Part shown: positions 2,085-16,178 of the stretch, one piece after another
Numbering within the stretch: the stretch's first letter is position 1
How the letters are laid out: every line of letters starts with the position of its first letter
Source: Corynebacterium aurimucosum
GTDB lineage: Bacteria > Actinomycetota > Actinomycetes > Mycobacteriales > Mycobacteriaceae
Direction: 5' to 3'
DNA: 64,000 nt
Assembly: GCF_030408555.1 (NCBI RefSeq)
Contig: NZ_CP047048.1
Location: forward strand, 2,046,001-2,110,000
Made by a program: the position numbers and the translations under genes
The notes under the pieces: generated by a model
The model's input: the letters and a program-made list of their open reading frames with translations, nothing else
Databases searched by the model: none
Told to the model about the DNA's origin: nothing

Positions 2085-2202
2085 CCCTCTTCCCCTTCCC
2101 GCGCCTAGGCCTCGAAGCCTGCGGCCCACATCCGGTATCGCACACCCCGGGCGGTCCTACATGGCATCTCACGAAAGGCAAGCGCCGCATTTCGCAAAAG
2201 GC

Positions 2203-2345
2203 GCCTTGCAAAAGGCATCTTCCAGAAGACGTTTTCACAGCTAAAAACGCCTTTTGCGCCCTCCACATGGCGTTTTCAGCCCCAAAGACGCCTTTTGTCA
2301 GACGCCATTTGTCAGATGCCTTCTGCTGGATGCCATTTGTGAGAT
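2203..2345. repeat. Dispersed repeat family B, copy 1
   Basis: The core is TAAAAACGCC (2242-2251), then 17 bp, then GGCGTTTTCAG (2269-2279), then 8 bp, then ACGCCTTTTG. The same blocks with the same spacings occur in copy 2 at 8957-8994. The 3' part, a GTCAGATGCC-like stretch followed by GGATGCCATTTG (2328-2339), also matches copy 2. The inverted AAAACGCC/GGCGTTTT pairs could fold into several short hairpins. It contains no coding frame. Confidence 0.75.
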
Positions 2346-2510: not shown

Positions 2511-2576
2511 GGTTTACTTGGGGGCAAGTAAACCTTCTGCACCGAGCTAGATGGTTCGTTTGGGGGCAAACAAACC
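2511..2576. repeat. Dispersed repeat family C, pair 1 of 24-bp palindromic units
   Basis: Two 24-bp imperfect palindromes occupy 2511-2534 (GGTTTACTTG...CAAGTAAACC) and 2553-2576 (GGTTCGTTTG...CAAACAAACC), each centred on GGGG and separated by 18 bp. The same unit length and the same 18-bp gap are found in the second pair at 15990-16055, in the opposite orientation. The pair is bracketed by an 8-bp inverted repeat (TGCAGTCA near 2500 and TGACTGCA near 2580). Confidence 0.8.
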
Positions 2577-2702
2577 TTATGACTGCAACCATCTAACTAG
2601 AACCCTCTACCGGCATACCAAGCCGAGCAAGGATGCTAGAAGAGCTCCCCTTTTTAATAAAATCACCCAAGTTTCCACGCCAGTTCTGGCTATATCGCGG
2701 AA

Positions 2703-2841
2703 GGTCCCTTTAGTTTGGTGCCTTCATTCTGGTCCCTTTGTCCAGTAAAGGGACCATCTATCAGACGAAAAGCTGCGCCACATGGTCCCTTTGCACACAG
2801 AAGAGACCAAAGTAGAGGGACCAAACCAGAAGGACCATCTG
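2703..2841 (-). repeat. Dispersed repeat family A, copy 1
   Basis: The block is built from GGTCCCTTT and its complement. A 25-bp palindromic unit GGTCCCTTT-N7-AAAGGGACC lies at 2731-2755, and a degenerate unit lies at 2784-2808. Read on the minus strand, the right end (from 2841) begins CAGATGGTCCTTCT, as copy 2 does at 8821. No coding potential was seen. Confidence 0.75.
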
Positions 2842-2895
2842 TGAGAGAGCGGAAAACAAGGCCTAGCAGGCGGGCAGCAAGAAGGCGAAGTGGGC

Positions 2896-3321
2896 TTAGG
2901 TGCGGAAGGGGCGGGTGGGGCCGTCGAGAAGCAGGCAACAGTAGCTGGTGAAGACGGCGTCCGTGAGGGGAAGCTCGCCCACTGCGACCTCGAGGTCGCG
3001 GCCCCGCGGGGTGGTGCGGGCGACCTCGGCCGACGTGGCATCCGAGAGAGCAAGGATGCGGCGCTGCCGGCGGAAGGGGTTCGTGCGCTCGAGCAGGTAC
3101 TCGCGGCCCTGACAGAGCGCGCGCAGCTTGTTCACCGTGAAGCTGGTCTGCTCCGCCGAAAATTCGGGCCCACGCACGGTAAAGCTGCGCGCGCCCGGGA
3201 TGTGTTCGAAGGCGATGGTGGTGCCCGTAGCAGAAAGCTGCAGGCCTGTCGGGTTCACGCGGGCGATGACCTCCCCCGCGCCATCCGCCAACGCCCCGTC
3301 GCGCCACACCCAACGTTGCAT
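2896..3321 (-). CDS. Conserved hypothetical protein (141 aa)
   Basis: I do not recognise a family. The protein begins MQRWVWRDGALADG, has no signal peptide or obvious membrane segment, and looks like a small beta-rich soluble domain. Its start overlaps the stop of the upstream 172-aa gene (TGATG arrangement at 3319-3323), so the two are probably translated together downstream of glyS. Both proteins carry short motifs about a value of a gene product's surface (AFEHIPGA, AFINEAGG), which may reflect paralogy, but this is weak. Confidence 0.65.
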   Translation of the reverse strand: MQRWVWRDGALADGAGEVIARVNPTGLQLSATGTTIAFEHIPGARSFTVRGPEFSAEQTSFTVNKLRALCQGREYLLERTNPFRRQRRILALSDATSAEVARTTPRGRDLEVAVGELPLTDAVFTSYCCLLLDGPTRPFRT

Positions 3322-3839
3322 CAGAGAAGCACCGCGATGATGGCGACGATGGTCATGAGCAGCAGCGTCGCGATAATCGGGACCGCGGTCTTCTGCGTCC
3401 GGGCCTCCAAAATGACGCGCGTAAACCAGCTTAAAGCCGCAATCTCCGAATGGCTGAGATCATCGGAATCGTCGCTGTCCTCGCCCTCAAATTCGAGGAT
3501 GGCCTTACGCACGCCAGAGTTCTTAGAGGAAAACTGGGCAATCTTCAGCCCCTCGTGGTCCTCAACAATCCAGTCCCCGCCGGCCTCGTTGATGAAGGCA
3601 AAGGTGCGTCCATCCAGCGAGGCCTCCAAACGCTTATCGCGCTTGGGGTTGCCCGCCAGGCGGTAGACACGGTCATCTTCCAAGGTCACCGACGCGCCCA
3701 GGTCATCGAGGCCCAAGCGCCAGTGCTCGCCTTCCACATCTGCCGAGCGTTCCTGGAACATGCCCAACGACGCCGGCCCCTCCCCCACGAGGAGCACCGG
3801 GTTCTTGCGGTCGCTGCGGTCCCAGCTGGTGTAGTGCAT
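3321..3839 (-). CDS. Conserved hypothetical protein with C-terminal membrane anchor (172 aa)
   Basis: The first ~115 residues form a soluble, probably beta-rich domain. An acidic stretch (EFEGEDSDDSDD) precedes a single C-terminal hydrophobic helix of about 22 residues at the very end, so this looks like a tail-anchored membrane protein. The ATG overlaps the glyS stop (TAATG at 3837-3841), and the next gene overlaps its own stop, which indicates a glyS-led operon. No function can be inferred from the sequence. Confidence 0.7.
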   Translation of the reverse strand: MHYTSWDRSDRKNPVLLVGEGPASLGMFQERSADVEGEHWRLGLDDLGASVTLEDDRVYRLAGNPKRDKRLEASLDGRTFAFINEAGGDWIVEDHEGLKIAQFSSKNSGVRKAILEFEGEDSDDSDDLSHSEIAALSWFTRVILEARTQKTAVPIIATLLLMTIVAIIAVLL

Positions 3840-5218
3840 TAGCAGCCGATCAGCCGGGCGGCCAGGTAAGCCTCAAGCTCATCGAGCTTGACGCGCTCCT
3901 GTTCCATGGAGTCACGCTCACGCACGGTGACCGCGTTGTCCTCGAGGGTGTCGAAGTCATAGGTCACGCAGAACGGAGTACCAATCTCATCCTGGCGGCG
4001 GTAGCGGCGGCCGATGGCACCAGACACATCGAACTCCACGTTCCAGTTCGCGCGCAGCTTGTTGGCCAGCTCGCGGGCCGGGGTGGACAGCTCTTCCTTC
4101 TTGGACAGCGGCAGCACGGCCACCTTGACCGGAGCCAGACGGCGGTCCAGGCGCAGCACCACGCGCTTATCGGTGCCGCCCTTGGCGTTCGGGGCTTCCT
4201 CTTCGTCGTAGGCGTCGATAAGGAAGGCCATCATGGCGCGGCCCAGGCCGGCCGCCGGCTCGATGACGTACGGGGTCCAGCGCTCGCCGGCCTCCTGGTC
4301 AAAGTAGGACAGATCCTCGCCCGAGCCCTTGGTGTGCACGGAAAGGTCGTAATCCGTACGGTTGGCCACGCCTTCCAGCTCACCCCACTTGGAGCCCTTG
4401 AAGTTGTAGGCGTATTCCACGTCCACGGTGCGCTTGGAGTAGTGGGAGAGCTTCTCCTGCGGGTGCTCGTAGAGGCGCAGGTTCTCCTTCTTGATACCGA
4501 GGTCGATGTACCAGTTGAAGCGGTCATCGATCCAATACTGGTGCCACTCTTCGTCCTCGCCCGGCTTGACGAAGAACTCCATCTCCATCTGCTCAAACTC
4601 GCGGGTGCGGAAGATGAAGTTACCCGGGGTGATCTCGTTGCGGAAAGACTTACCAATGTTCGCGATACCGAACGGCGGCTTCATACGCGCCGAGGTCATC
4701 ACGTTCTTGAAGTTCACGAAGATGCCCTGCGCGGTCTCCGGGCGCAGGTAGTGCAGGCCCTGCTCGTCGTCGACCGGCCCCAGGAAGGTCTTGAGCAAAC
4801 CGGAGAAGGCCTTCGGCTCGGTCCAGTCACCCGGCTGGCCGGTCTCCGGATCATTGATATCAGCCAGGCCGTTGGCCGGCTCGTGGCCGTGCTTTTCCTC
4901 GTAGGCCTCAATCAGGTGGTCCGCGCGGTAGCGCTTACCGGTGTGCTTGGACTCCACCAGCGGGTCGGTAAAGACCTCAACGTGGCCGGAAGAAACCCAC
5001 ACCTGGCGCGGCTGGATCACAGAAGTATCGACACCCACGACGTCATCGCGGGACTGCACCATGTGGCGCCACCACTGGCGCTTGATGTTTTCCTTGAGCT
5101 CGACGCCAAGCGGGCCATAGTCCCACGCAGAGCGGGAACCGCCATAAATCTCACCTGCCTGGTAGACCAAGCCGCGGCGCTTACACAGGCTGACGACGGT
5201 ATCAATGACGGATGCCAT
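3839..5218 (-). CDS. glyS: Glycyl-tRNA synthetase, single-chain alpha2 type
   Basis: This class II aminoacyl-tRNA synthetase charges tRNA-Gly with glycine. At 459 residues it has the usual length for the actinobacterial homodimeric enzyme. Visible features are the N-terminal [16 protein letters not shown] start, class II motif 2 (SFRNEITPG followed by [11 protein letters not shown] at about 190-215), a glycine-binding [10 protein letters not shown] stretch at about 160, and an anticodon-binding domain in the last ~120 residues. The start ATG has an AGAGGAG ribosome site at good distance. It is divergent from the znr-zur pair, as in other corynebacteria. Confidence 0.97.
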
Positions 5219-5249
5219 AGCTAATGGGACTCCTCTGGTAGGGGACAGT

Positions 5250-5258
5250 CTTTATACA
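5250..5258 (-). promoter_or_regulatory. Putative -10 element of glyS
   Basis: On the minus strand the sequence reads TGTATAAAG, with TATAAA about 32 bp upstream of the glyS ATG, followed by a purine-rich AGAGGAG ribosome site. No convincing -35 box is visible, which is common in corynebacteria. This is by eye only. Confidence 0.5.
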
Positions 5259-5347
5259 GTGCGGCCTAGTCTAGCGTGCCCCCAATCACCGCGTGCCTTC
5301 ACCCCGAAAGTGTGGTGCATTTTATACACATTTCCGCATTCTTCGGC

Positions 5348-5353
5348 TATAGT
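5348..5353 (+). promoter_or_regulatory. Putative -10 element of znr-zur
   Basis: TATAGT lies about 55 bp upstream of the preferred znr start inside an AT-rich stretch (5318-5360) between glyS and znr. ArsR-type regulators often repress their own promoter by binding AT-rich imperfect palindromes in such a place, but I could not define a clean operator. Confidence 0.4.
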
Positions 5354-5408
5354 ACCGATAGCTCTCTTTTTAACTCTCCACCGATAGAAATGACTGAAGG
5401 TGAATGGC

Positions 5409-5708
5409 GTGACCAACACCCAGACTGACACTCTCTCCTTTGATCTCGCGGCGGCCGCCACCGTCATCAGCGCTTTGGATTCACCGTTGCGCATCGACAT
5501 CATTCAGCGCCTGGCCGAGCGCGATCACTACGTCCACGAACTCGTGTCCGCGACCGGCAAGTCGCAGCCACTTATTAGCCAACACCTGCGGGTTTTGAAG
5601 CGCGCGAACATCGTCGACAGCGAGCGCACCGGCCGCGAAGTCCGCTACTCTCTGGTGGCGCCGAGGGTGCTGCCTTTGCTTCGCGACGCCTCACTGGCCA
5701 CCTCTTAA
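5409..5708 (+). CDS. znr: ArsR/SmtB-family metal-responsive repressor
   Basis: This winged-helix repressor of about 99 residues has a typical ArsR fold: the HTH (VHELVSATGKSQPLISQHLR) lies in the middle and a beta wing (RTGREVRYSLV) follows. I chose the GTG at 5409 because GAAGG lies 8-9 bp before it; a GTG at 5400 is in frame but would overlap that site. The gene is directly upstream of zur. In Corynebacterium glutamicum the equivalent pair controls zinc uptake and export genes, so zinc is the likely signal. The symbol rests on synteny. Confidence 0.85.
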   Translation: MTNTQTDTLSFDLAAAATVISALDSPLRIDIIQRLAERDHYVHELVSATGKSQPLISQHLRVLKRANIVDSERTGREVRYSLVAPRVLPLLRDASLATS

Positions 5709-5735
5709 TGGAAGTGTGTTGATAAACTAAGCCAC

Positions 5736-6155
5736 ATGGCCATCCACGACAGTATTCCCAAACTCGGCGCTCGCAACACCCGCCAGCGCACCGCCGTCGT
5801 TGAGGTTCTGCGTAGTCTCGACAAGTTCGCGTCTGCCAAGGACATTCACCAGGCGCTTCTCGACGGTAACCAGAAAGTCGGCCTCACCACCGTCTACCGC
5901 ACGCTCCAGTCACTCTCGGAGATTGACGCTGTTGATGCGCTCCACATGCCCTCCGGCGAGACCCTCTACCGCCATTGCGAGAGCGATGCGCACCACCACC
6001 ACTTGGTGTGCACCAAATGCGGCCGCACCGAAGAAATCGATGGCGGCCCGATTGAAGAGTGGGCCTCCTCGGTAGCCAAGGAGCACGACTTCGAGCTCAC
6101 CGGGCACGATGCCGAAATCTTCGGCATCTGCGCCGAGTGCCGCGCGGCGTCTTAG
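5736..6155 (+). CDS. zur: Fur-family zinc uptake regulator Zur
   Basis: This Fur-superfamily repressor has 139 residues. The N-terminal winged helix contains RNTRQRTAVVEVLR and VGLTTVYRTLQSLSE. The dimerisation domain has the histidine-rich DAHHHHLVCTKCG metal site and a second CxxC (CAEC) near the C terminus, which together give the structural zinc site. It follows znr with a 27-bp gap and is likely co-transcribed. With zinc bound it is expected to block high-affinity zinc uptake genes. Synteny with glyS and uppS supports Zur over the iron-type Fur. Confidence 0.92.
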   Translation: MAIHDSIPKLGARNTRQRTAVVEVLRSLDKFASAKDIHQALLDGNQKVGLTTVYRTLQSLSEIDAVDALHMPSGETLYRHCESDAHHHHLVCTKCGRTEEIDGGPIEEWASSVAKEHDFELTGHDAEIFGICAECRAAS

Positions 6156-6221
6156 ACACGCCACTTTTCCTGCCACATCGAGGATATCTTCATCCCCTGA
6201 CAGCACTACACAGCTCGCGCG

Positions 6222-6974
6222 CTACTTGACGCCGCCGAAGCGGCGGTCACGCCGCGCGTACTCCTCCACCGCGGCGAACAAGTCTTCCGGAGTGAAATCC
6301 GGGAAGAGCTTGTCCTGGTAAATCATCTCTGCGTAAGCCGACTGCCACAGCAGGAAGTTGGAGGTGCGCTTCTCGCCGGAGGGGCGCAAGAACAGATCCA
6401 CGTCTGGCATATCGGGGTCATACATCACCGAGCTGACCGTCTTCTCATTGATGAAGCGCGGGTCCAGCTCGCCGCGGGAGACTTGCTCGGCGAGTTTCCG
6501 GATGCCGTCGACAAGCTCGGCGCGACCACCGTAATTCACGCACATCACCAAGGTCATCTTGGTGTTGTCCTTAGTCAGCTCCTCGGCGGCCTCGAGCTCC
6601 TTGATCACAGAGCGCCACAGGCGCGGGCGGCGGCCGGCCCAGACCACGCGCACTCCCCTCTCGTTGAGCCAGTGTCGCTGGCGGCGCAGCACATCGCGGT
6701 TAAAGCCCATGAGGAAGCGGACTTCCTCCGCGCTGCGGCGCCAATTCTCGGTGGAGAAGGCATAAGCGGAAAGGTAAGGAACACCGAGGGAAAGACAGGC
6801 ATCGACGACGTCGAGAAGCACTGCTTCCCCGCGACGGTGACCTTCGGTGCGCTTCATGCCGCGCTCCTCTGCCCAGCGGCCGTTGCCGTCCATGACCAGC
6901 GCGATATGGCGCGGCAGGAACTCCTGCGGGATAGCGGGCGGATGAAGAACTCGGTTCGGGTCAGGCGTAATCAC
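6222..6974 (-). CDS. uppS: Isoprenyl (decaprenyl) diphosphate synthase
   Basis: This cis-prenyltransferase extends allylic diphosphates with isopentenyl diphosphate to give the polyprenyl carrier used for peptidoglycan and arabinogalactan. Diagnostic motifs are [11 protein letters not shown] near residue 26 (catalytic Asp), the substrate-binding YAFSTENW, and the C-terminal [19 protein letters not shown] and AYAE. The length of 250 residues is usual. It lies 10 bp after recO and close to era, forming a three-gene minus-strand unit that converges on zur. Confidence 0.96.
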
Positions 6975-6984
6975 GGGTTACAGT

Positions 6985-7701
6985 CTACTGTTCCATGATC
7001 CCCAACGCGCCAACGCTTCGCTCAAGATGCCATTGCAGGTGCGCGCGGGTGAGGCGATGGGCCTCTTGGGCTTGGGCGTTCGTTGGTTGACTGGGGTGGT
7101 CATGGGCGATGAGCCACATGTGGTGCAGGGTTTCTGGGTCTACCTCGGCGGCGCCTGGTGGGCGGCATTGGTGGCAGGCGGCCCCGCCCACGGCTGGGTG
7201 GAAGGCGTGGTGCGGGCCGGGTCTTTGGCACTGGGCGCAATCGAAAAGGCTGGGAGCCCAGCCGGCGTGGGACATGGCTTTGAGAAGGAAGGCATCGAGA
7301 AGCATGAGCGGATCGCCGTGCTGAAGCTTGTCGAGGACATCGACGCAGGCCTCATAGAGGTAGGGATCGCCGGGGGCATCAGCGGCGGCGAGGCGCTCGG
7401 CGGATTCGAGGGCAGCACACGCAGCGGTATAGCGCTCGTAGTCCTCGATGATGCGCGCGCCGAAGTAATCCACGGTATCGGCCTGGGAAATGGTGTAGAG
7501 GTTACGCCCGGGATAAAGCTGAACGTCGAGGTTAACGAAGAGCTGCAGGCGCGAGCCGAAGCGCGACTTGGCGCGGCGCACTCCCTTGGCCACCCCGCGC
7601 ACGAGGCCGTGACGACGGGTCAAGAGCACGATGATGCGGTCCGCCTCGCCAAAATCATAGGAGCGGATGACAAGGGCGCGGTCGCGGAAGTTTTCGCGCA
7701 T
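6985..7701 (-). CDS. recO: DNA repair protein RecO
   Basis: RecO loads RecA at single-stranded gaps in the RecFOR pathway and anneals ssDNA. The protein has the N-terminal OB fold (RDRALVIRSYDFGEADRIIVLLT), the central helical region and a C-terminal zinc-binding module with two CxxC pairs (CAQC and CHQC at about 178-200). The length of 238 residues is typical. The gap to era is 18 bp and to uppS 10 bp, so the three are probably one transcript. Confidence 0.95.
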   Translation of the reverse strand: MRENFRDRALVIRSYDFGEADRIIVLLTRRHGLVRGVAKGVRRAKSRFGSRLQLFVNLDVQLYPGRNLYTISQADTVDYFGARIIEDYERYTAACAALESAERLAAADAPGDPYLYEACVDVLDKLQHGDPLMLLDAFLLKAMSHAGWAPSLFDCAQCQRPGPHHAFHPAVGGAACHQCRPPGAAEVDPETLHHMWLIAHDHPSQPTNAQAQEAHRLTRAHLQWHLERSVGALGIMEQ

Positions 7702-7719
7702 GTGGAAGTTCTCCGGCTT

Positions 7720-8715
7720 TTAGAAGCCCAGGCGGCCCAGCGCCTTCGGGTCCGACTGCCAATTCTTGAGCACCTTAATACGCAGGTCAAGGTAGACGTT
7801 CTGGCCGAGCAGCTGAATGATTTCCTTGCGGGCGGTACCCACGATGCGGCGGAAGCGGCGGCCGTCCTTGCCTTCGATGATGCGCTTCTGGCCGGGGCGC
7901 TCCAGGTAGAGGATGGCGTGGACGTTGAGGACGTCCGGGCGCTCCTGGCTAGGCAGAATCTCATCGACTTCGACGGCAACCGAGTGCGGCAGCTCGTATT
8001 TCAGGCCGGAGAGCGCAGACTCGCGGATCAGCTCGGCGATGCGCTTGGACTGGTCTTCGTCGGTGACGTGGTCATCGGGGTAAAACTTGGGGCCTTCGGG
8101 CAGGTGGTCCACGATGACCTGGGTCAGCTCATCCAGCTGCACGCGCTCGGTGGCGCAAACGGGGATGACCACGGCATCGGGGTTCTCTTCCGCGAGCAGC
8201 TCGTGCAGGGCAAGCAGCTGGGCGCCGACTTGGTCCTTGGACGCTTTATCTAGCTTGGTGACGATGCCGATGATGGGGGTCTTCGGCGCGACCTTGCGGA
8301 CGTTCTCCAAGATCCAACGATCGCCGGGGCCAATCTTTTCGTCCGCGGGGATGGTCAGGCCGATGACGTCAACGTCTGCATACGTGTCTTTAACGACTTC
8401 GTTGAGGCGCTCGCCGAGCAGAGTGCGCGGGCGGTGCAGGCCAGGTGTGTCGACGAGGACGATCTGCGCATCCTCGCGGTGCACCAGGCCGCGGATGGGG
8501 TGGCGGGTGGTCTCGGGCTGGTCCGCCGTGATGGCGATCTTCTGCCCCACCAGCGCGTTGGTCAGGGTGGACTTGCCGGTGTTGGGGCGGCCGACGAAAG
8601 ACACGAAGCCGGAGCGGAAGCCCTCGGGCGTGTCGGTGTACTGCGAGTAGTCGGCGGGGTTGGCTTCGCCCTCGGCTGGTAGGTCGGCGAAGGCGGCATC
8701 GAAATCAGTGCTCAT
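7720..8715 (-). CDS. era: GTPase Era
   Basis: This essential GTPase binds 16S rRNA and helps 30S maturation. The G1 loop GRPNTGKST lies at about residues 43-51, G3 is DTPG, G4 is TKLD, and a KH RNA-binding domain occupies the last ~100 residues (ILYLERPGQKRIIEGKDG). The N-terminal extension of about 35 acidic residues is typical for corynebacteria. It is the first gene of era-recO-uppS, and the block upstream holds repeat families A and B. Confidence 0.96.
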   Translation of the reverse strand: MSTDFDAAFADLPAEGEANPADYSQYTDTPEGFRSGFVSFVGRPNTGKSTLTNALVGQKIAITADQPETTRHPIRGLVHREDAQIVLVDTPGLHRPRTLLGERLNEVVKDTYADVDVIGLTIPADEKIGPGDRWILENVRKVAPKTPIIGIVTKLDKASKDQVGAQLLALHELLAEENPDAVVIPVCATERVQLDELTQVIVDHLPEGPKFYPDDHVTDEDQSKRIAELIRESALSGLKYELPHSVAVEVDEILPSQERPDVLNVHAILYLERPGQKRIIEGKDGRRFRRIVGTARKEIIQLLGQNVYLDLRIKVLKNWQSDPKALGRLGF

Positions 8716-8820
8716 ATTGCCTCATATCATAACGCAACAGCTGCCGAGTCCCGTTCTTGTTGTATCGCTCTGCTCGGGCTCTCGCCGTTCGGCCCGCAAA
8801 GCTTCCTGCCGATGCGCTGG

Positions 8821-8885
8821 CAGATGGTCCTTCTAGTCTGGTCCCTTCTCTGCACAAAGGGACCAGACTAGGGGGACCTTCTGTG
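8821..8885 (+). repeat. Dispersed repeat family A, copy 2 (long hairpin)
   Basis: A 53-bp near-perfect inverted repeat spans 8826-8878. The left arm GGTCCTTCTAGTCTGGTCCC is answered by its complement on the right with two mismatches. The inner unit at 8840-8864 is the 25-bp GGTCCCTT...AAGGGACC palindrome that also occurs in copy 1 at 2731. The element begins CAGATGGTCC, as copy 1 does on the minus strand. It sits between the start of era and the end of pdxY. Confidence 0.8.
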
Positions 8886-8929
8886 CTTCTGCGGGGTTTA
8901 TCTGGCCTGCAGAGGGGTCGGATCAGAAG

Positions 8930-9045
8930 GCGTCTGTCAAAGGGCGTCTTTGGTGGTAAAAACGCCATCTGGACGCCGCAAAAGGCGTTTTCAGGCGTGA
9001 AAACGCCTTGTGACAGATGCCTGCTGCGGGATGCCATTTGCGGGG
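8930..9045. repeat. Dispersed repeat family B, copy 2
   Basis: TAAAAACGCC (8957-8966), a 17-bp spacer and GGCGTTTTCAG (8984-8994) are followed 8 bp later by ACGCCTTGTG and then GACAGATGCC and ATGCCATTTG (9031-9040). Motifs and spacing equal copy 1 near 2242-2339. Conservation is confined to these motifs; spacers differ, which suggests structural rather than coding constraint. Confidence 0.75.
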
Positions 9046-9081
9046 CCGCGGCAAGCACGCGAAGCTGCCGAGACGTGAAAG

Positions 9082-9930
9082 CTAGAGCTCCTCGACCTGG
9101 AATTGCAGCTGCGGGTGAGCGAAGGTGTCCTGCGATTCGATGAGGAGCAGCTCCTGCGAATCCGCCTCGTAGGTGTTCTGCAGCAAGTCGAAGACCGAAG
9201 AAGCCGTGCGCTTGAGCGCTTCCTTCGCATCGTGGGTTTCCACGTAGTGGCCGGTGAAAAGCGAGGCCGTGACGTCACCCGAACCGTTGCGCTTGAACGG
9301 CAGCTTGGGGGTGCTCACCAGGAAGGCGCGCTCGCCATCAACGGCGAGCATCTCAATCTCGTCCTCGCTGGTCTCTGGGCGCTGCACCGAGGTCACCAGC
9401 ACAGTCTTCGGACCAATCTCCTGCGCGCGCTTCACCGCGGCAAGCGTTTGCTCCAAGGTGCCCACCTCGGAGTCAGTCAGGTAGCCCAACTCGAACTGAT
9501 TCGGGGTGATGATGTCCGCGACCGGAACGACCTTATCGCGCAGCAGCGGCGGGATTTCATCGGAGACGAAACAGCCAGACTTGGCGTTGCCCATCACCGG
9601 GTCGCAGGCATAGAGGGCCTTGGGGTTGACCGCCTTGATGCGGTTCACAGCATCCACGATGGCACCGGCGATGTCCGGACCGCCCTGGTAGCCAGACAAG
9701 ATCGCATCAATGCGCGGGAAGGCGCCGCGCTTTTCGATGCCATCCACAATCGCCGTGACCTCTTCCGCCGGGATCATCGGCCCGCCCCAATCGCCGTAAC
9801 CGGTGTGGTTGGAGAAGTTCACCGTGTGGATAGGCCATACCTCATGGCCAGCGCGCTGAAGAGGAAAGACTGCTGCGGAATTGCCCACGTGGCCGAAGGT
9901 GACGTGGGACTGGATGGAGAGGATATTCAT
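9082..9930 (-). CDS. pdxY: Pyridoxal kinase
   Basis: This ribokinase-family enzyme phosphorylates pyridoxal to pyridoxal 5'-phosphate in the B6 salvage pathway. The 282 residues show HVTFGHVGNSAAVFPLQ at the N terminus, the TGYGDWGG and SGYQGG substrate-loop segments, CDPVMGNAKSG, and the anion-hole/catalytic GSGDVTASLF near residue 220. It stands alone on the minus strand between the repeat block upstream of era and ybeY. PdxK is the alternative name for the same activity; length and motifs favour PdxY. Confidence 0.93.
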   Translation of the reverse strand: MNILSIQSHVTFGHVGNSAAVFPLQRAGHEVWPIHTVNFSNHTGYGDWGGPMIPAEEVTAIVDGIEKRGAFPRIDAILSGYQGGPDIAGAIVDAVNRIKAVNPKALYACDPVMGNAKSGCFVSDEIPPLLRDKVVPVADIITPNQFELGYLTDSEVGTLEQTLAAVKRAQEIGPKTVLVTSVQRPETSEDEIEMLAVDGERAFLVSTPKLPFKRNGSGDVTASLFTGHYVETHDAKEALKRTASSVFDLLQNTYEADSQELLLIESQDTFAHPQLQFQVEEL

Positions 9931-10014
9931 AACTCTCCATTGTGCTACGCCCCACCACGCACCTCAACGATTGGCCTTATTTAGCAAACACGCTGTCTTA
10001 GCGCGGCCGTGTCA

Positions 10015-10036
10015 GGCGCGGCACCAAGCCCGCGCC
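10015..10036 (-). terminator. Possible terminator hairpin after ybeY
   Basis: A perfect 7-bp GC stem GGCGCGG / CCGCGCC with an 8-nt loop lies just past the ybeY stop codon. There is no T-run on the minus-strand side, so this is at best a weak intrinsic terminator. Confidence 0.35.
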
Positions 10037-10044
10037 GGGCCACT

Positions 10045-10620
10045 TTAGATGCCGCCGCCGGGAACTTCCTTATCCAGCTCCGCGCGCTCGGCGGCATCCG
10101 GGAAAGCCTTCGGGCCAGAAGGCTTGGGCTGGTAGCTCACACCACGGGCCGCCAAGTCCTCATACCAGTCCGCCAGCAGCTCGTTCTGCAGGCCGAACAT
10201 TTCCTTCTCTTCCGCCGCAGTGGTGTGGTCATAGCCCAGCAGGTGCAGGCAACCGTGCACGGTGAGCAGAGCCAACTCGTGGCCCAAGGAGTGGCCGGCC
10301 GCGGTGGCTTGGCGCTGCGCAAACTCTGGGCAGAGCACGATATCGCCCAGCATGGCCGGTCCGGCCTCCGCTGCGTCGGGGCGCCCGCCTGTAGCACCCG
10401 GGGTGAGCTCATCCATGGGGAAGCTCATCACGTCGGTCGGGCCTTCCAGGTCCATCCAGCGCACGTGCAGCTCCGCGATGGTGTCCAGGTCCACCGCGGT
10501 AATGGTGCACTCGGCATCCGGATTCACGTCGAGGCGGCCGAGGGCGTAGGAGCAGACGTCGATCAGCATCTCCTCGTTGACGCCGTCATAGCCGGACTCG
10601 TTGATAAACTCGATGCTCAT
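10045..10620 (-). CDS. ybeY: rRNA maturation endoribonuclease YbeY
   Basis: This zinc-dependent RNase acts in 16S rRNA 3'-end maturation and 70S quality control. The family signature [11 protein letters not shown], with its three metal-binding histidines, lies at about residues 120-130 of 191, and DVMSFPMDE precedes it. Its start overlaps the phoH stop by 4 bp (ATGA), so translation is coupled. The C-terminal tail beyond residue 160 is longer than in enterobacterial YbeY. Confidence 0.95.
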
Positions 10621-11588
10621 TTCTTCTCCTCCTGCTCAACAAAATTGTCGTAGGCCTCCACGATGCGCCCGACCAGCTGGTGGCGCACCACATCAGCAGA
10701 GCCCAGCTCCGCGAAGTGAATATCCGGCACGCCCTTGAGAATGCGGCGCACCAGGCGCAGCCCGGAGACCTGGCCACCGGGCAGATCCACCTGGGAGATA
10801 TCCCCGGTCACTACGATGGTGGAGCCAAAGCCCAAACGCGTCAGGAACATTTTCATCTGCGCCGGCGTGGTGTTTTGGGCCTCATCGAGGATGACGAAGG
10901 CATCGTTGAGCGTGCGGCCACGCATATAGGCCAAGGGGGCGACCTCAATGATGCCGGCTTCCATGAGCTTCGGAATCATCTCCGGGTCGATCATGTCCCG
11001 CAAAGCGTCGTAGAGCGGGCGCAGGTAGGGGTCAATCTTGTCGTTGAGTGTGCCAGGCAGAAAGCCCAGCTTCTCCCCCGCTTCCACGGCCGGGCGGGTC
11101 AAGATAATGCGGCTGACCTGCTTGGCGCGCAGGGCCTGCACCGCCTTGGCCACCGCCAGGTAGGTCTTACCGGTACCGGCCGGACCAATGCCGAAGACAA
11201 TCGTGTTCTCATCAATCGCCTGCACATAGCGCGATTGCCCCACCGTCTTCGGGCGCACGGCCTTGCCGCGGCGCGAGACGATATCGGCCGCGAGCGTCTC
11301 AGACACGGAGGCCGGGGCATCCACCGTGACCAGGTCCAGGGTGTGCTTCACGGTATCGGTGCTCACCGGGTGACCGCGGCGGGCAATCGCCTCGAGTTCC
11401 TCCAGGACCTTGCGCGCGCGGGCTACCTCATAATCGGGGCCGGCGGCAGTAATGGTGGTGCCGCGGGCAAAGAGGTCCACGCCCACGAGGTTGCCCAAAA
11501 CGCGCAGGTTATCGTCCGCCGGGCCGAGCACCGTGGCCAGGTAGGCGGAATCGAGATCAAACTTGGTGGTGATAATAGGCACGCCCAA
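10617..11588 (-). CDS. phoH: PhoH family ATPase
   Basis: This is a PhoH-like P-loop ATPase of 323 residues, probably an RNA helicase/RNase-associated factor given its fixed pairing with ybeY. The Walker [12 protein letters not shown] lies at about residue 135, the Walker B region is [14 protein letters not shown], and a [10 protein letters not shown] motif follows. An N-terminal KH-like segment (about 20-70) is typical for this subfamily. It overlaps ybeY by 4 bp and lies 4 bp after rsmE. Confidence 0.94.
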
Positions 11589-11592
11589 AAGG

Positions 11593-12333
11593 CTACCAGC
11601 GCGCGGTCAGGGTGCCGATGCTGGCCAAGGCCACCATGCTTGCCGACGCCGTCCGCAACACCTCCGGCCCCAACTTGATCGCCGTCGCACCGGCGTCCTG
11701 CAGGCGGGCCAGTTCCTCCGCGCCGATGCCGCCCTCCGGCCCCACCAGTAGGTAGATGGTTCCGGCGGAGTCGAGGTCCTCCAGGTCCTTGAGCCGCACT
11801 TGAGCTTCCTCGTGAAGAACCAAGGCGCGTGCACCCGAAATCTCCTGGCATAGCTGGCGGGTAGTCAGCGGGCCGCGCACCGCGGGTACGCGCACTCGGC
11901 GCGATTGCTTCGCCGCCGCCACGGCTGCAGATTCCCACTTCGCTAGCGCCTTCGGGGCCTTCTTGGCATCCCATTTGGACACGCAGCGATCCGCCTGCCA
12001 GGCGATGATCTCATCCGCCCCGGCCTGGGTAGCCAGGTCGACGGCGAGTTCGGCGCGCTCAGACTTGGGGATAGCCTGGACCACGACCACCCTCGGGGAG
12101 GGTTCGGGGAGGATCGCGAGGTCGTCGACAAGCGCGACCAGCGTGTCCTTGCCCTGCGTATCAGTGATGGTGGCGGTAGCGCGGCGCCCGGACCCATCGA
12201 TCAGGACCAAGTGCTCCCCTGGGCCCATGCGCTTGACGGTGACCGCGTGGCGGCCCTCCGCACCATCGAGGCCCACCGGCTGGCTGACCTCCGCGAGGGA
12301 AAGATCCGGGTGGAGGAAGACGGGTAAAGACAT
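11593..12333 (-). CDS. rsmE: 16S rRNA (uracil-1498-N3)-methyltransferase
   Basis: This SPOUT-class methyltransferase modifies U1498 of 16S rRNA. An N-terminal PUA-like domain (HAVTVKRMGPGEHLVL) is followed by the knotted SAM-binding domain with YLLVGPEGGIGAEEL and the C-terminal LRTASASMVALASIG. The length of 246 residues is usual. The start overlaps the dnaJ2 stop by one base (TAATG), so the two are coupled. Confidence 0.95.
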   Translation of the reverse strand: MSLPVFLHPDLSLAEVSQPVGLDGAEGRHAVTVKRMGPGEHLVLIDGSGRRATATITDTQGKDTLVALVDDLAILPEPSPRVVVVQAIPKSERAELAVDLATQAGADEIIAWQADRCVSKWDAKKAPKALAKWESAAVAAAKQSRRVRVPAVRGPLTTRQLCQEISGARALVLHEEAQVRLKDLEDLDSAGTIYLLVGPEGGIGAEELARLQDAGATAIKLGPEVLRTASASMVALASIGTLTARW

Positions 12334-13475
12334 TAGCGGCGGAACTTATCGCGGAAGCGGCTAAAAAGGGATTCGCCCTGGCCATCCCCGGCATGGTGGA
12401 CCTCGGTGCCTCCGTGGCCGGCGGCGCGGACCTTTTCGAGGGCCTCGCGGGTCTTCTTATCCAGGTCCGTCGGGATCACCACATCCACGTGAGCGTGGAG
12501 GTTGCCGAATCCGTCGGTGCGCAGGCGCGGCATGCCCTTGCCCTGGAGGGTGATGGATTCGCCCGGCTGGGTGCCCGGCGCGATATCGATGGTGAGCTCC
12601 TCGCCGTCGAGCTGCTCGACGGTGCAGGAAGAGCCCAGAGCTGCATCCACCATGGGCACGCGCACGGTCAGGTGCAGGTCATCAGCATTGCGCTCGAAAA
12701 CGGGGTGCGGCTCGGTGTGTACCTCGACGTAGAGGTCACCAGCGGGGCCGCCGCCGTGGCCGACCTCGCCCTGGGAAGCCATGCGGATGCGCATGCCATC
12801 ACCAATGCCGGCGGGGATGTTCACCGTAATATCGCGGCGCTTGCGCACGCGGCCATCGCCACCGCAGTGGCCGCAGGGATCGGTGACTACTTCGCCGAAG
12901 CCATAGCACTTCGGGCAATCGCGGGTAGTCATCATGTTGCCCAGCATGCTGCGCTGGACCTCCTGAACCTGGCCCATACCGCCACAGTGATCACAGGTCA
13001 CCGGCTTGGACTTGGACTCAGAACCAGAGCCCTCACAACGGTCACAGACCACGGCGGTATCGACCTTGACCTGCTGCTTCACTCCGCTATAAGCCTCTTC
13101 GAGGGTAATCGTGGTGCGCAGCAGCGCGTCATCGCCGGGCTGCACACGGGAACGCGGGCCGCGGGAGGCTGCTCCCCCGCCGAAGAACTCGGCGAAGATA
13201 TCCCCGAGGCCGCCGCCACCGAAACCACCAAAGCCGCCGCCCTGGGCCGCGCGCTCCTCCATGGGGTCACCACCCATGTCCACAACCCGGCGCTTCTGCG
13301 GATCCAGCAGAACCTCCTGTGCAAGGGAAGCCTCGCGGAACTTCTCCGCGGCCTCCTCATCGCCCGGGTTCACATCCGGGTGGTACTTGCGCGCCAGCTT
13401 GCGGTAAGCCTTCTTAATCTCGGCGTCGGACGCCGACTTTTCTACACCAAGAATGCCGTAGTAGTCACGAGCCAC
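12333..13475 (-). CDS. dnaJ2: Chaperone DnaJ (second, HrcA-linked copy)
   Basis: This type I Hsp40 co-chaperone stimulates DnaK. It has an N-terminal J domain with YHPDV near residue 32, a Gly/Phe-rich stretch ([11 protein letters not shown]), four zinc-finger repeats ([32 protein letters not shown]) at about 145-215, and two C-terminal beta-sandwich domains. The length is 380 residues. It follows hrcA by about 54 bp. Corynebacteria normally keep one dnaJ with dnaK-grpE and this second one beside hrcA. Confidence 0.96.
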
Positions 13476-13529
13476 GTACTGTCATCCTTCTATATCTCGT
13501 TGATACTAAATCTAATCCGACGGGCCAGC

Positions 13530-14564
13530 TTACTCGCCCGCCAAAATTTCACTCACATAGCGTGCAACGGCAGAGACCTTGGAGATTGTTCCCGAATAAT
13601 CCATATATGTCGGCCCCACCACACCAAGCCCGCCGAGTGCTGCAGCCTCCGAGCCGGTGCCGAATCCATAGCGCGTGGCCACGACGGAGGTTTGGCGCAG
13701 CTCATCGGCTTCATTTTCCTCACCAATGGAGACTGATACGTTGCCCAAGTCTGGCACGCGGGCCAGCAATTTCAGCACCACGACCTGCTCTTCAAGAGCT
13801 TCGATGATAGAGGGCAAACCCTCGGTCAGGGCCACGCGGGTGAGATTGGACGTACCCGCCATGATCAGGCGATCGGAGGGCTGCTCCACGAGGGTCTCAA
13901 TCAGCGTCGTCGCCGCCTTGAGGAGGTGGGGGCGGATATCGGCCGGGGAGTCGTCGACAAGCGCGGCCAGCTCCACCGAGGCTTCCGTGAGCGTCTTGCC
14001 CTCCAGGGCGGTGTTGAGGATATCGCGCAGGCGGTGGGTCTGCTCGGGGTCGATGACATCATCGAGCTCCACATTGCGCTGATCGACGCGCCCATTATCC
14101 GTAATCAACACCAAGAGCAGACGCACCGGTGAGAGTGCCACGACCTCGCAGTGCTTCACGCGGGAGACCTTGAGGTTAGGCATCTGCACGACGGCCGCTT
14201 GCTTAGTTACCTGGGCCAACAGCTGGACAGAGCGGCGCAGCACGTCTTCCAAATCCACGCCGCCCTCGAGGAAGGTGAGCATGGCGCGGCGCTCGGCCTT
14301 GGAAAGCGGCTTAACATCGTGCAGCGTATCGACGAACTGGCGGTAGCCCTTCTGCGTGGGCACGCGCCCGGAGCTGGCGTGCTCTTGGGCGATGAGGCCT
14401 TCGGCTTCGAGCACGGCCATGTCATTGCGAATCGTCGCCGAGGACACGCCCAGCTGGTAGCGCTCGAGCAGGGCCTTGGAGCCGACGGGCGATTGCGAGG
14501 CGATGTAGTCCGCGACGATGGCGCGCAGGACCTCTTGGCGGCGGGCATCGGTGGAGCTAGACAT
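13530..14564 (-). CDS. hrcA: Heat-inducible transcription repressor HrcA
   Basis: HrcA represses groE and related heat-shock genes through CIRCE operators. The winged helix lies at the N terminus ([24 protein letters not shown]), followed by the IDD and GAF-like domains, with [14 protein letters not shown] in the middle. I place the start at the ATG at 14564 ([10 protein letters not shown]), giving about 344 residues; a TTG at 14606 is in frame but overlaps the upstream gene. No CIRCE palindrome is visible upstream, so this copy does not look autoregulated by it. Confidence 0.93.
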
Positions 14565-14574
14565 GTCTTTAAGG

Positions 14575-15747
14575 CTATCCGTCCTGGCGGGCGATGAAGT
14601 CGTCAAAATTTGGCACAGTGTAGCTCACCCTGCCGTGTTCTGGAGCATAGATCAACCCTTTACTAATGAGCTTGGCTCGCACAGGACCCAATTTCTTCGT
14701 GTCTTTACCTAAGATGTCCGCGATGTCCTTGCTCGAGATTTCCACTCCGCCAACCTTCGCCATCGCGGTCAAGTAGTCCCGCTCAGCTGGAGTAGCGCGA
14801 TCCCACCTGGCTTGGAAAAACCCGCGGTCCAACTGCTCAATTCCAAGCCGCGCGGCGCGTCGAGCTGCATCGGAATCCATAGGTGAAGTTCGCGCAGTGC
14901 GCCACATTTGTGCACCAAATTCCTGGATGAAATACGGATACTGCCCCGATACATTTGCTAGATATTCAACTGCTTCATCGTCAAATTCCACATTCTGTGT
15001 CCGCGCAGGTTCACGGAAGGCGGCAAGTGCGGCATACATTTCGAGCCTGCCAATTTGGTGCACCTCGAACATTCGCTCTGCATAAGAGCGGGACTCCGCC
15101 AGAATCCCTGGCAGACTCGGAAGCCCAGCACCAATAATGTAAAAAGGCAAGCCCAGCTGCCCTGCTTCATGTTGTGCAGAAATGAGCGCTTCGAGCAGCT
15201 CTTCATCGAGGTCTTGCATTTCGTCGATGAAGATTCCTAAAGCTTTATCCTCCTTAAGGAGCGTCGTAGTGATGGCCTCGATCACATCGTGCAGATCAAG
15301 CTCAAGGTTTCCTGTTGCCGGAGGAATGTCTCCTACTTCAACTCCAAGGTCAATAATGCTTTGTCCTACCGAGAGCGAAAAGGATTTTACGGCCGCAGCA
15401 ATAAAGTTAAAACCCTCAGATACCTTGGCTTTCGTTCGGTAACGCAAAGAGGCCTTGGCTAAACCTTGTGCTAGAGCACGGCGTGCTCCTTCTCGTCCAC
15501 GTGCCCCCTGCGAAGCCTCAAACTTAATCGTTAGCCAGTCGGCTTGGTCAGCCTTCCTTTTTAATTGGTTGAGCAGCACGGTCTTACCCACTCCACGCAA
15601 GCCAACGAGCAGCATTGGACGGCCAAGCAATCCGTTCTGGACGCGTTTGACAAGATTGTCAAACGCATGAAGGTCTCTCTCGCGCCCAGTAAGAACTGTC
15701 GGCGCGATGCCCGAGCCAGGAGTGTAGGGGTTTAAGGCATCATCCAT
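14575..15747 (-). CDS. AAA-family ATPase with probable C-terminal winged helix
   Basis: This P-loop ATPase of about 390 residues resembles the archaeal-type/AAA_16 group. The Walker [12 protein letters not shown] lies at about residue 48, Walker B is [14 protein letters not shown], and a sensor-like [13 protein letters not shown] follows. The last ~80 residues ([27 protein letters not shown]) look like a winged helix. I prefer the ATG at 15747; the frame stays open to 15813. Its composition is visibly less GC-rich than its neighbours, and as far as I recall hrcA-hemW loci of related species lack it, which suggests transfer. Regularly spaced ACTAAC repeats lie just upstream. It ends 10 bp before hrcA. 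The function is unknown. Confidence 0.75.
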
Positions 15748-15750
15748 GCC

Positions 15751-15880
15751 ACTAATACTAGCAATATCGAGAGCGACTAACAGGTTTCTCGACGTAGAGA
15801 AAGAAACTAACACCGACTAACGCCGCTATCAAACTTTCCGACGAAAGGAGAAAAACTAACAAATTCCCAGCGGGGCTAAC
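15751..15880. promoter_or_regulatory. Helically phased ACTAAC repeats upstream of the ATPase gene
   Basis: On the plus strand ACTAAC occurs at 15776, 15806, 15816 and 15855, with GCTAAC at 15875 and ACTAAT at 15751. Distances between the five main copies are 30, 10, 39 and 20 bp, close to whole DNA turns. On the minus strand, in the direction of the ATPase gene, they read GTTAGT. An inverted repeat TTTCTC-N6-GAGAAA lies between copies at 15785-15802. The arrangement looks like a multi-site operator. Confidence 0.55.
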
Positions 15881-15989
15881 TTTAAGTCACTATGTCTCCT
15901 CGGTATCGAAAGGCCAAGGCTTGGCCACTTCTTCGCGGCTTCGCGGTTGCATCACACAGATGGTTCTACTCAGATGGCTCAGGTCATAC

Positions 15990-16055
15990 GGTTTACCTGC
16001 CCCCAAACGAACCTTCTAGCAGCCTAAGGAAGGTTTGCTTACCCCCAAACGAACC
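15990..16055. repeat. Dispersed repeat family C, pair 2 of 24-bp palindromic units
   Basis: Units at 15990-16013 (GGTTTACCTG...CAAACGAACC) and 16032-16055 (GGTTTGCTTA...CAAACGAACC) have the same length and 18-bp gap as the pair at 2511-2576 but lie in reverse orientation (CCCCC centre instead of GGGGG). They are in the 300-bp gene-free gap between the ATPase gene and the end of hemW. Two CAGATGG motifs (15957 and 15971) precede them, as in family A. Confidence 0.8.
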
Positions 16056-16178
16056 TTCCGACCGGAGCCTTTCCACTGGAACCATGTGCAGAAGGCAGGG
16101 CAGGCCACGATCAGGGTACGGCCGCTAATGAGCCAGCTGATGCGGACTCGGAGGTCGGCCCGCCGGCGGGGCAAGCCG

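Follow-up and report, generated by a model that had tools for sequence, protein, structure and literature searches.

Paired palindromes of Corynebacterium aurimucosum form the core of an intergenic element on a 14-bp grid, a possible protein-binding array

Introduction

Two distant pairs of 24-bp palindromes within 64,000 nucleotides of Corynebacterium aurimucosum DNA (the stretch analysed here, referred to as the window) raise the question of what these pairs belong to and what reads them. Bacterial intergenic repeat families are usually explained as parasites or as folded RNA. The positional conservation of half-sites described below helps to separate these two readings from recognition by a protein.

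Results

The palindrome pairs recur in the genome

All four 24-mers that the first-pass annotation had grouped into two pairs matched its consensus with 0 mismatches, at 2511-2534 and 2553-2576 on the plus strand and at 15990-16013 and 16032-16055 on the minus strand. The 42-bp unit spacing and 18-bp gap that it gave for each pair were also correct, as was the opposite orientation of the two pairs (judged by the GGGG loop). These were the only window matches to the consensus at ≤3 mismatches; 100 dinucleotide shuffles averaged 0.01 matches. At the same threshold, a search of the genome returned 21 matches versus 0 for a backwards control pattern. Both counts, along with the orthologous copies carried by other genomes, argue against chance or an assembly artefact; we found no point in favor of that explanation and regard it as extremely improbable. 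The expectation of many intergenic pairs with a 42-bp period was borne out in part: six exact 42-bp pairs were present genome-wide, including the window's own two, along with one pair at 41 (627108/627149). Three matches were unpaired (C2:6088, C1:765217, and C1:1576655).

Among ten aligned loci of the genome, the second palindrome began 42 nt after the first in nine and 41 nt after it in the tenth (L010), because palindrome 1 of that copy is one base short. Three sequence classes were distinguished among the copies: class I (GGTT), class II (GGC), and class III (GGTCCC). The spacing was exactly 42 bp in 22/22 class I rows of alignment A4, a count that is partly due to selection because these rows were chosen at 130 nt. 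For class II, it was 41 in 14 of the 15 rows of alignment A5 (chosen at 128-129 nt) and 40 in the other, and it was 53 in the class III copy of the window. The exact 42-bp spacing is thus a property of class I only and, with spacings of 41 or 53 bp in related copies, the four DNA turns proposed in the first-pass annotation do not hold as a strict rule. A scan for the spacing of GGTCCC pairs over 61 genomes was swamped by GC-rich genomes and was uninformative.

The element is built on a 14-bp grid

Each pair forms the center of a larger, ∼130-nt element, an array on a 14-bp grid that consists of inward-pointing modules, a palindrome, a linker, a second palindrome, and mirror modules. Each 14-bp module carries the half-site A-N-A-N-G-G followed by T or C, with TC at its end; left modules point right and right modules point left, i.e., toward the palindromes. 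The class I palindrome spacing fits this grid (42 = 3 x 14), and the grid is the more general of the two regularities. It also continued outside the modelled 130 nt: in 40 elements, some of which are orthologues of each other, the left-flank motif ANANGG fell on the 14-nt grid in 12/25 cases and the right-flank motif CCNTNT in 10/24 (1/14 expected; binomial 4e-8 and 3e-6, respectively), whereas motifs of opposite polarity continued their own grid in just 2/13 and 0/16 flank cases.

The number of modules ranged from 1 to 6 in the left arm and from 1 to 5 in the right and was unequal between the arms in 25 of 44 rows (one element being present twice in this set). At three loci, orthologous copies from different species differed in arm length by 14 or 28 nt, precisely one or two modules. 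Together with the unequal arms, this indicates that the element can do without a closed outer stem. The ends were enriched in ACATGG/CCATGT, with ACATGG in 23/88 outermost versus 5/115 inner modules. The G-rich loops of both palindromes lay on the same strand in 20/22 class I rows; the exceptions, L104 and L078, have CCCC as the loop of the second palindrome.

The first reported pair belongs to a class I element at 2479-2608 on the plus strand (115.4 bits with model R1), read in 14-nt rows. Its left arm (2465-2506) has three inward modules, the outermost of which (2465-2478, ACATGG) lies beyond the model. This arm is followed by palindrome 1 (2511-2534, with 10-bp arms and a GGGG loop), an 18-nt linker (2535-2552) with the ends TTCT...AGAT, palindrome 2 (2553-2576), and a right arm of two mirror-orientation 14-bp modules (2581-2608, minus strand). 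On one side lies a class II element of the GGC type with 41-bp spacing (2196-2324, plus strand, 93.3 bits) that has 2 left and 5 right modules, the extra right-hand ones reaching to about 2366 with the outermost doubtful. On the other side is a class III element of the GGTCCC type (2699-2840, plus strand), to which R1 gave 47.7 bits on one strand and 49.5 on the other and which reads in 14-nt rows as modules at 2703 and 2717, a palindrome at 2731-2755, a 28-nt linker, a palindrome at 2784-2808, and right modules to 2836. Farther along the plus strand, we read from the sequence a short class III unit with a single palindrome on the 14-bp grid (8822-8885), and R1 identified a class II element (8911-9039, 84.9 bits) located upstream of one minus-strand gene and downstream of another. 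The second reported pair is part of a class I element on the minus strand (15958-16087, 106.1 bits), with palindrome 1 at 16032-16055 and palindrome 2 at 15990-16013.

Copies lie mostly at gene 3' ends

Scoring 150 of 382 first-look candidates with model R1 located the element at 19 places in the source genome (G000), and a 20th is in the window. Class II was present in 9 of 201 Corynebacterium genomes. An apparent symmetry of element positions about the G000 contig ends was dropped, being absent from the positions in genome G012.

All 16 examined sites lie between called genes, with overlaps of 8-29 nt between a gene call and the element at three of them that may reflect the choice of start codon or gene end. 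The copies are mostly at gene 3' ends, and convergent gaps were favored (9/16 sites versus 12/55 background gaps, p = 0.013). No common function was seen among the neighboring genes (20 proteins with Pfam assignments, plus the window neighbors). A T-loop-like string beside L024 was considered as a tRNA and rejected by ARAGORN.

This placement is what would be expected of a bidirectional transcript-end element, in which RNA from either side forms hairpins (a GG...CC stem followed by WTYT and preceded by ARAW) that end or protect the 3' ends of convergent transcripts. The elements at L026 and L038 nearly fill their gaps (18/13 and 32/12 nt left), strong folds occur in some copies, and the palindromes inside the element scored as terminators at 7/16 sites in a home-made scan whose GC threshold of 0.5 excludes the AT-rich class I stems. 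A canonical terminator outside the element was found at 1/9 convergent element sites, discounting a match at L025 that falls in a neighboring class II element, versus 8/16 element-free convergent gaps; this contrast is small and not significant (p = 0.09). Against this explanation, the T tracts are short and interrupted, the repeated 14-nt arm modules would be superfluous for termination, strong separate terminators are present at L027, L030, and L031, and, as described below, cross-arm pairing at free module positions is at chance and G.U is not in excess. We consider this explanation unlikely.

Folding of one RNA strand is probably not what is conserved

Cross-arm pairing at the free module positions was at the level of chance (32% at R2, 35% expected; 46% at W4, 42% expected), and G.U and A.C mismatches were equally frequent (85 versus 85). 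These results suggest that the folding of a single RNA strand is not the conserved feature, with the qualification that equal numbers of the two mismatches would also result if both RNA strands functioned symmetrically. Some positions paired more often than in shuffles: v8, v10, and v11 of palindrome 1, v8 of palindrome 2, and, within the arms, v8, v9, v11, and one A3 (nominal p of 0.001-0.03 among 56 pairs). Whole-structure covariation was 0.216 versus 0.160 in shuffles, and RNA covariation was above shuffles on both 12 and 22 copies. Some copies folded much better than their shuffles (z of -8.6 and -5.4), and the two reported copies gave z of only -2.6 and -2.2 or -1.1; this span from -8.6 to -1.1 does not correspond to a uniform RNA fold.

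Across species, the arms gave no sign of within-locus compensation (14 of 15 listed pairs usable): two double changes kept the pair, and among single changes 13 kept, 13 broke, and 14 made a pair. With gathering scores as the cutoff, no Rfam 15 family matched the window, and none matched at the element in L023, L028, L040, or L089 (E up to 0.5). The first-pass annotation had offered cooperative protein binding or a folded RNA; the former fits these tests better, and the latter is disfavored by the chance-level R2/W4 pairing and the balanced mismatches and favored by the excess pairing at several inner positions.

Half-site letters are conserved in place

By-eye reading of the locus comparison assigned same-place counterparts in genome G012 or G057 to 17 of the 20 G000 copies (9 in both). 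Some places lacked a copy in one or other species, a point against the binding-array reading favored below. The elements of 24 out of 27 pairs were more alike than their own 60-bp flanks (93.7% versus 84.7% pooled, fixed orientation; the set includes L098 with L104, for which the model orientation is a tie). Changes affected 13/448 cells at the key positions A1, A3, G5, and G6 of 14 orthologous loci, compared with 84/896 for R2, W4, and v7-v12 (p = 6e-6); the changes numbered 19/224 at v13-v14, 103/1120 over all non-key module positions, and 23/135 in the linker, the fastest-changing part. The contrast persisted with bases matched at 11 clean loci (5/342 versus 20/301, p = 8e-4), and it may be slightly inflated since the copies were found by models that reward conserved columns. 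Between species, the letters of the half-sites thus stay the same in place, and the bases that would pair at free positions change; this contrast suggests that the 14-bp lattice is read by its sequence. Recognition of half-sites by a transposase would conserve the motif equally well from copy to copy, but it would not do so in place.

The conservation in place also bears on whether the element descends from a REP/BIME- or MITE-like mobile repeat, non-autonomous and spread by a module-recognising enzyme, of which the present copies are decaying remnants. Consistent with such an origin, ∼20 dispersed copies fall into three sequence classes and have distinctive ACATGG ends, and a 381-bp sequence common to L032 and L036 indicates that at least one of the two was moved or duplicated along with flanking sequence. 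At one site, G012 and G057 carry the element, flanked by a short direct repeat around CTAG, and G000 does not. When five loci were compared with a genome without a model hit there, one showed a CTAG-containing short direct repeat, one an 8-nt remnant suggesting deletion, and three were not clean; a clean target-site duplication was not found. Other results run against this origin: most copies have same-place counterparts with key positions conserved in place, PF01797 (Y1 transposase) gave 0 matches in the source genome at E up to 0.001 (the control was positive in 5/14 known genomes), and phage, plasmid, and viral-contig collections contained no match to the element. On balance, we view a decaying mobile repeat as rather unlikely.

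Discussion

We tentatively favor, at somewhat less than an even chance, the view that a clade-specific intergenic element, with the pairs at its core, acts as a binding-site array for a putative sequence-specific protein on double-stranded DNA. Such a protein would dock on two palindromic double sites 41-42 bp apart (about four helical turns) and extend outward from them along the 14-bp grid, where three modules equal four turns, presumably binding the duplex cooperatively. At 3' ends or between convergent genes, the bound array might serve as a local transcription boundary or stop or as a chromosome-organising site. A bolder version, which we consider quite doubtful, is that of a new Corynebacterium DNA-binding system on a strict 14-bp lattice. 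Here, the putative protein would dock on two palindromes set four helical turns apart and polymerise outward over the inward-pointing half-sites to set a boundary where genes converge. The lattice would be kept as the half-sites drift into GGTT, GGC, and GGTCCC dialects, with element and reader co-evolving across species.

No description of the element was found in the literature searched. Should a binder exist, it would represent a gene-end organiser in Corynebacterium for which we found no description, and copies with naturally differing numbers of modules would offer a dosage series of arm lengths.

Among known systems, REP/BIME sequences usually exceed 100 copies per genome, bind several proteins, and have suggested roles in chromosome organisation and transcription termination, according to excerpts of PMC2817692. 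Both they and the present element are extragenic mosaics of palindromic units with short linkers. The element differs in having ∼20 copies, palindromes mostly in the same orientation rather than alternating, additional inward 14-bp modules, and a source genome in which the REP/BIME-associated tyrosine transposase (RAYT, Y1 family) was not found. Within the genus, the Corynebacterium diphtheriae stem-loop families include Cod-1 (140 nt, 17 intergenic copies) and Cod-3 (excerpts of PMC2267715). Compared by description rather than by sequence, these families are similar in length, copy number, and intergenic place, and the excerpted description does not mention a 14-bp module grid. The element resembles MITEs in being short, non-coding, dispersed, and composed of inverted repeats, and it differs from them in that its arms are 14-bp modules of variable number and it shows no clear target duplication. 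With intrinsic bidirectional terminators it shares the A-rich/stem/T-rich layout of its palindromes and a frequent position between convergent genes; it is set apart by its repeated arm half-sites, its weak T tracts, and the conservation of motif rather than pairing.

Recurrence of the paired palindromes

The first-pass annotation had described four 24-mers forming two pairs (window 2511/2553 and 15990/16032) with a 42-bp period and opposite orientations. All four are present at these places with no mismatch to the proposed consensus (0.01 expected by chance in the window), and both the spacing and the orientations were borne out. When the 2.74-Mb Corynebacterium aurimucosum genome (G000, in which the window is C1:2046001-2110000) was searched with a looser pattern (≤3 mismatches), 21 matches were obtained, compared with none for a backwards control pattern. 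These were neither confined to the known copies nor randomly spaced: 42-bp pairs occurred at C1 149818/149860, 615570/615612, 1906250/1906292, 2048511/2048553, 2061990/2062032, and 2511465/2511507, along with a 41-bp pair at 627108/627149, where palindrome 1 is one base short, and weak unpaired matches at C2:6088, C1:765217, and C1:1576655. Palindrome 2 starts 42 nt after palindrome 1 in nine of ten aligned G000 loci and 41 nt after it in the other.

The palindromes belong to an array on a 14-nt grid

The surroundings of the palindromes come into register when written as 14-nt rows (the right half of copy L009 is ruined), and 42 corresponds to three such modules. In class I elements, at least one module of ANANGG-N6-TC precedes palindrome 1 (10-bp arms, GGGG loop), which is followed by an 18-nt linker ending WTYT...ARAW, palindrome 2, and modules of the reverse type. 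Class II shares this layout but has GGC half-sites, and its linker measures 17 nt in 14 of 15 rows; class III has GGTCCC, 25-nt palindromes, and a 28-nt linker. A profile search of the window with a model revealed five elements within 14 kb, two of class I (2479-2608 and 15958-16087), two of class II (2196-2324 and 8911-9039), and one of class III (2699-2840). A short class III unit (8822-8885) was read from the sequence. In the self-match profile of the window, the only lags above 0.5 that are not multiples of 3 were 14, 28, 49, 50, and 55; lag 50 fits two identical 24-nt copies of TCCCCGCGCCAGCCCCTCCCAGCC (2011-2034 and 2061-2084), located 50 bp apart in one shared intergenic region.

The grid also holds beyond the part covered by the model. 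Within 70 nt past each end of 40 elements, some of which are mutual orthologues, 12 of 25 ANANGG occurrences on the left and 10 of 24 CCNTNT occurrences on the right continued the grid (1/14 expected), and motifs of opposite polarity continued their own grid in 2/13 and 0/16 cases. Among 44 rows, not all independent (L041 is present twice), ACATGG was the outermost module in 23 of 88 cases versus 5 of 115 inner modules, and left and right module numbers were equal in 19.

Conservation, pairing, and the nature of the element

Changes were counted at 14 orthologous loci (15 were prepared, and one was skipped for length). Module positions A1, A3, G5, and G6 had changed in 13/448 cells versus 84/896 for R2, W4, and v7-v12; the counts were 19/224 for v13-v14, 8/112 for loops, and 23/135 for the linker. 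With A and G alone compared at 11 clean loci, 5/342 cells had changed at key positions versus 20/301. Cross-arm pairing was assessed in a set of 23 class I copies, made up of 20 with less than 85% identity, minus a truncated one, plus four added by hand. At the free positions it was no better than in shuffles (R2, 32% versus 35%; W4, 46% versus 42%). Pairing exceeded shuffles at arm positions v8, v9, and v11, for v8 in both palindromes, and palindrome 1 gave 57% versus 26% at v10 and 70% versus 46% at v11. Mismatches comprised 85 G·U and 85 A·C in class I, and 60 G·U versus 44 A·C in class II (shuffles, 57 versus 43).

The module letters, 14-bp register, and inward polarity are kept, whereas the linker, the module number, and the cross-arm partner at free positions vary, as expected if a protein reads a series of sites on double-stranded DNA. 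Of the two readings offered at first pass, protein binding fits this pattern better than a folded RNA: the array would be a putative series of such sites, in which the two palindromes would act as double sites spaced 41-42 bp, and we infer a binder, its oligomeric state, and a boundary role. A selected one-strand RNA stem predicts a different pattern, but given the covariation at inner positions the palindromes themselves may fold. A function that requires the RNA of both strands, with which the G·U counts are compatible, is conceivable. Template-switch correction of palindromes is a known mutational process, and the residual symmetry could derive from it or from selection.

Evolution of the copies

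By our reading, 17 of 20 G000 copies have same-place counterparts in two other genomes, G012 or G057 (9 in both), and 24 of 27 pairs showed higher identity in the element than in its 60-bp flanks (pooled, 93.7% versus 84.7%). Descent from a mobile repeat would account for copy number and dispersal, but it leaves this in-place conservation unexplained, and no Y1 transposase was found in the genome. Copies differ in length by exactly 14 nt (L105 versus L031 and L094; L032 versus L090 and L058) or 28 nt (L089 versus L097, L108, and L066). The L023 copy is inverted in place in G012, where the flanks align plus/plus and the model matches the element on the opposite strand. One site carries class I in G000 and class II in G012; another carries class II in G000, class I in G012, and both in G057. 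The element is absent from one genome at five places, three of them not clean. An 8-nt remnant at one suggests deletion, and a short direct repeat at another may reflect insertion or deletion. Class II copies L032 and L036 share 381 bp, flanks included, at 81% identity, and L032 has a gene for an IS3-like transposase (rve, HTH_21) nearby.

Placement and neighboring genes

With adjacent copies merged and weak place 326547 excluded, 16 G000 sites had 9 convergent, 6 same-strand, and 1 divergent neighbors, versus 12, 31, and 12 for 55 background gaps of ≥100 bp (p = 0.013 for convergent, p = 0.27 for divergent). Genes were called by a home-made GC-position scorer, and the calls at L028 and L034, at least, are uncertain. 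A terminator reading has some support, as another canonical terminator was present at 1/9 convergent element sites versus 8/16 without an element (p = 0.09). No common function was seen among neighboring genes. Class I elements L024 and L038 (G000:C1:614344-615667) lie either side of a lower-GC3 gene with DUF559/REase-type endonuclease matches; G012 similarity ends just before the element, and G012 has a class II copy there. CTAAC strings are repeated at window 15750-15890, near the second element and next to a minus-strand AAA-ATPase gene of low GC3 (14575-15813), and a biotin-protein-ligase-like gene contains about eight KAEIN-type peptide repeats mid-gene (L023:501-1421).

Distribution and comparison with known systems

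Search model R1, built from 12 copies, identified at least 19 places in G000 (one short and weak), a lower bound because 150 of 382 candidates were scored; the class III copy, from the window search, is additional. These places cluster ∼580-670 kb from either contig end, a symmetry not seen in the listed G012 positions. Across 101 genomes, R1 matched five including G000, two weakly. Multiple copies were also scored by R1 in each of G105, G207, and G140. The class II search model R2 matched 9 of 201 Corynebacterium genomes, G000 among them, with copy counts being lower bounds (17 candidates scored per genome). A pattern scan of named genomes gave matches in Corynebacterium only: C. aurimucosum DE0410, C. 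minutissimum (two strains), HMSC036D02, HMSC078H07, and Candidatus C. faecipullorum. GGTCCC elements also occur in two other species (G036 and G051) with modules on the 14-nt grid at the four loci examined; the plan is therefore wider than the sequence. In another species, L042 (G029:C1:2165718-2165789), a near-perfect 72-nt hairpin that matches the model without its inner part, may be either a reduced relative or simply a terminator.

No element match was found in Rfam or in plasmid, phage, and viral-contig collections, and our search of open-licence papers, with incomplete coverage, found no description. REP/BIMEs are closest in style, but the element differs from them in abundance, transposase, and alternating orientation. 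Cod-1 of C. diphtheriae is 140 nt, intergenic, and present in 17 copies (PMC2267715); compared by description, it and the element are alike in size and number and may or may not be related.
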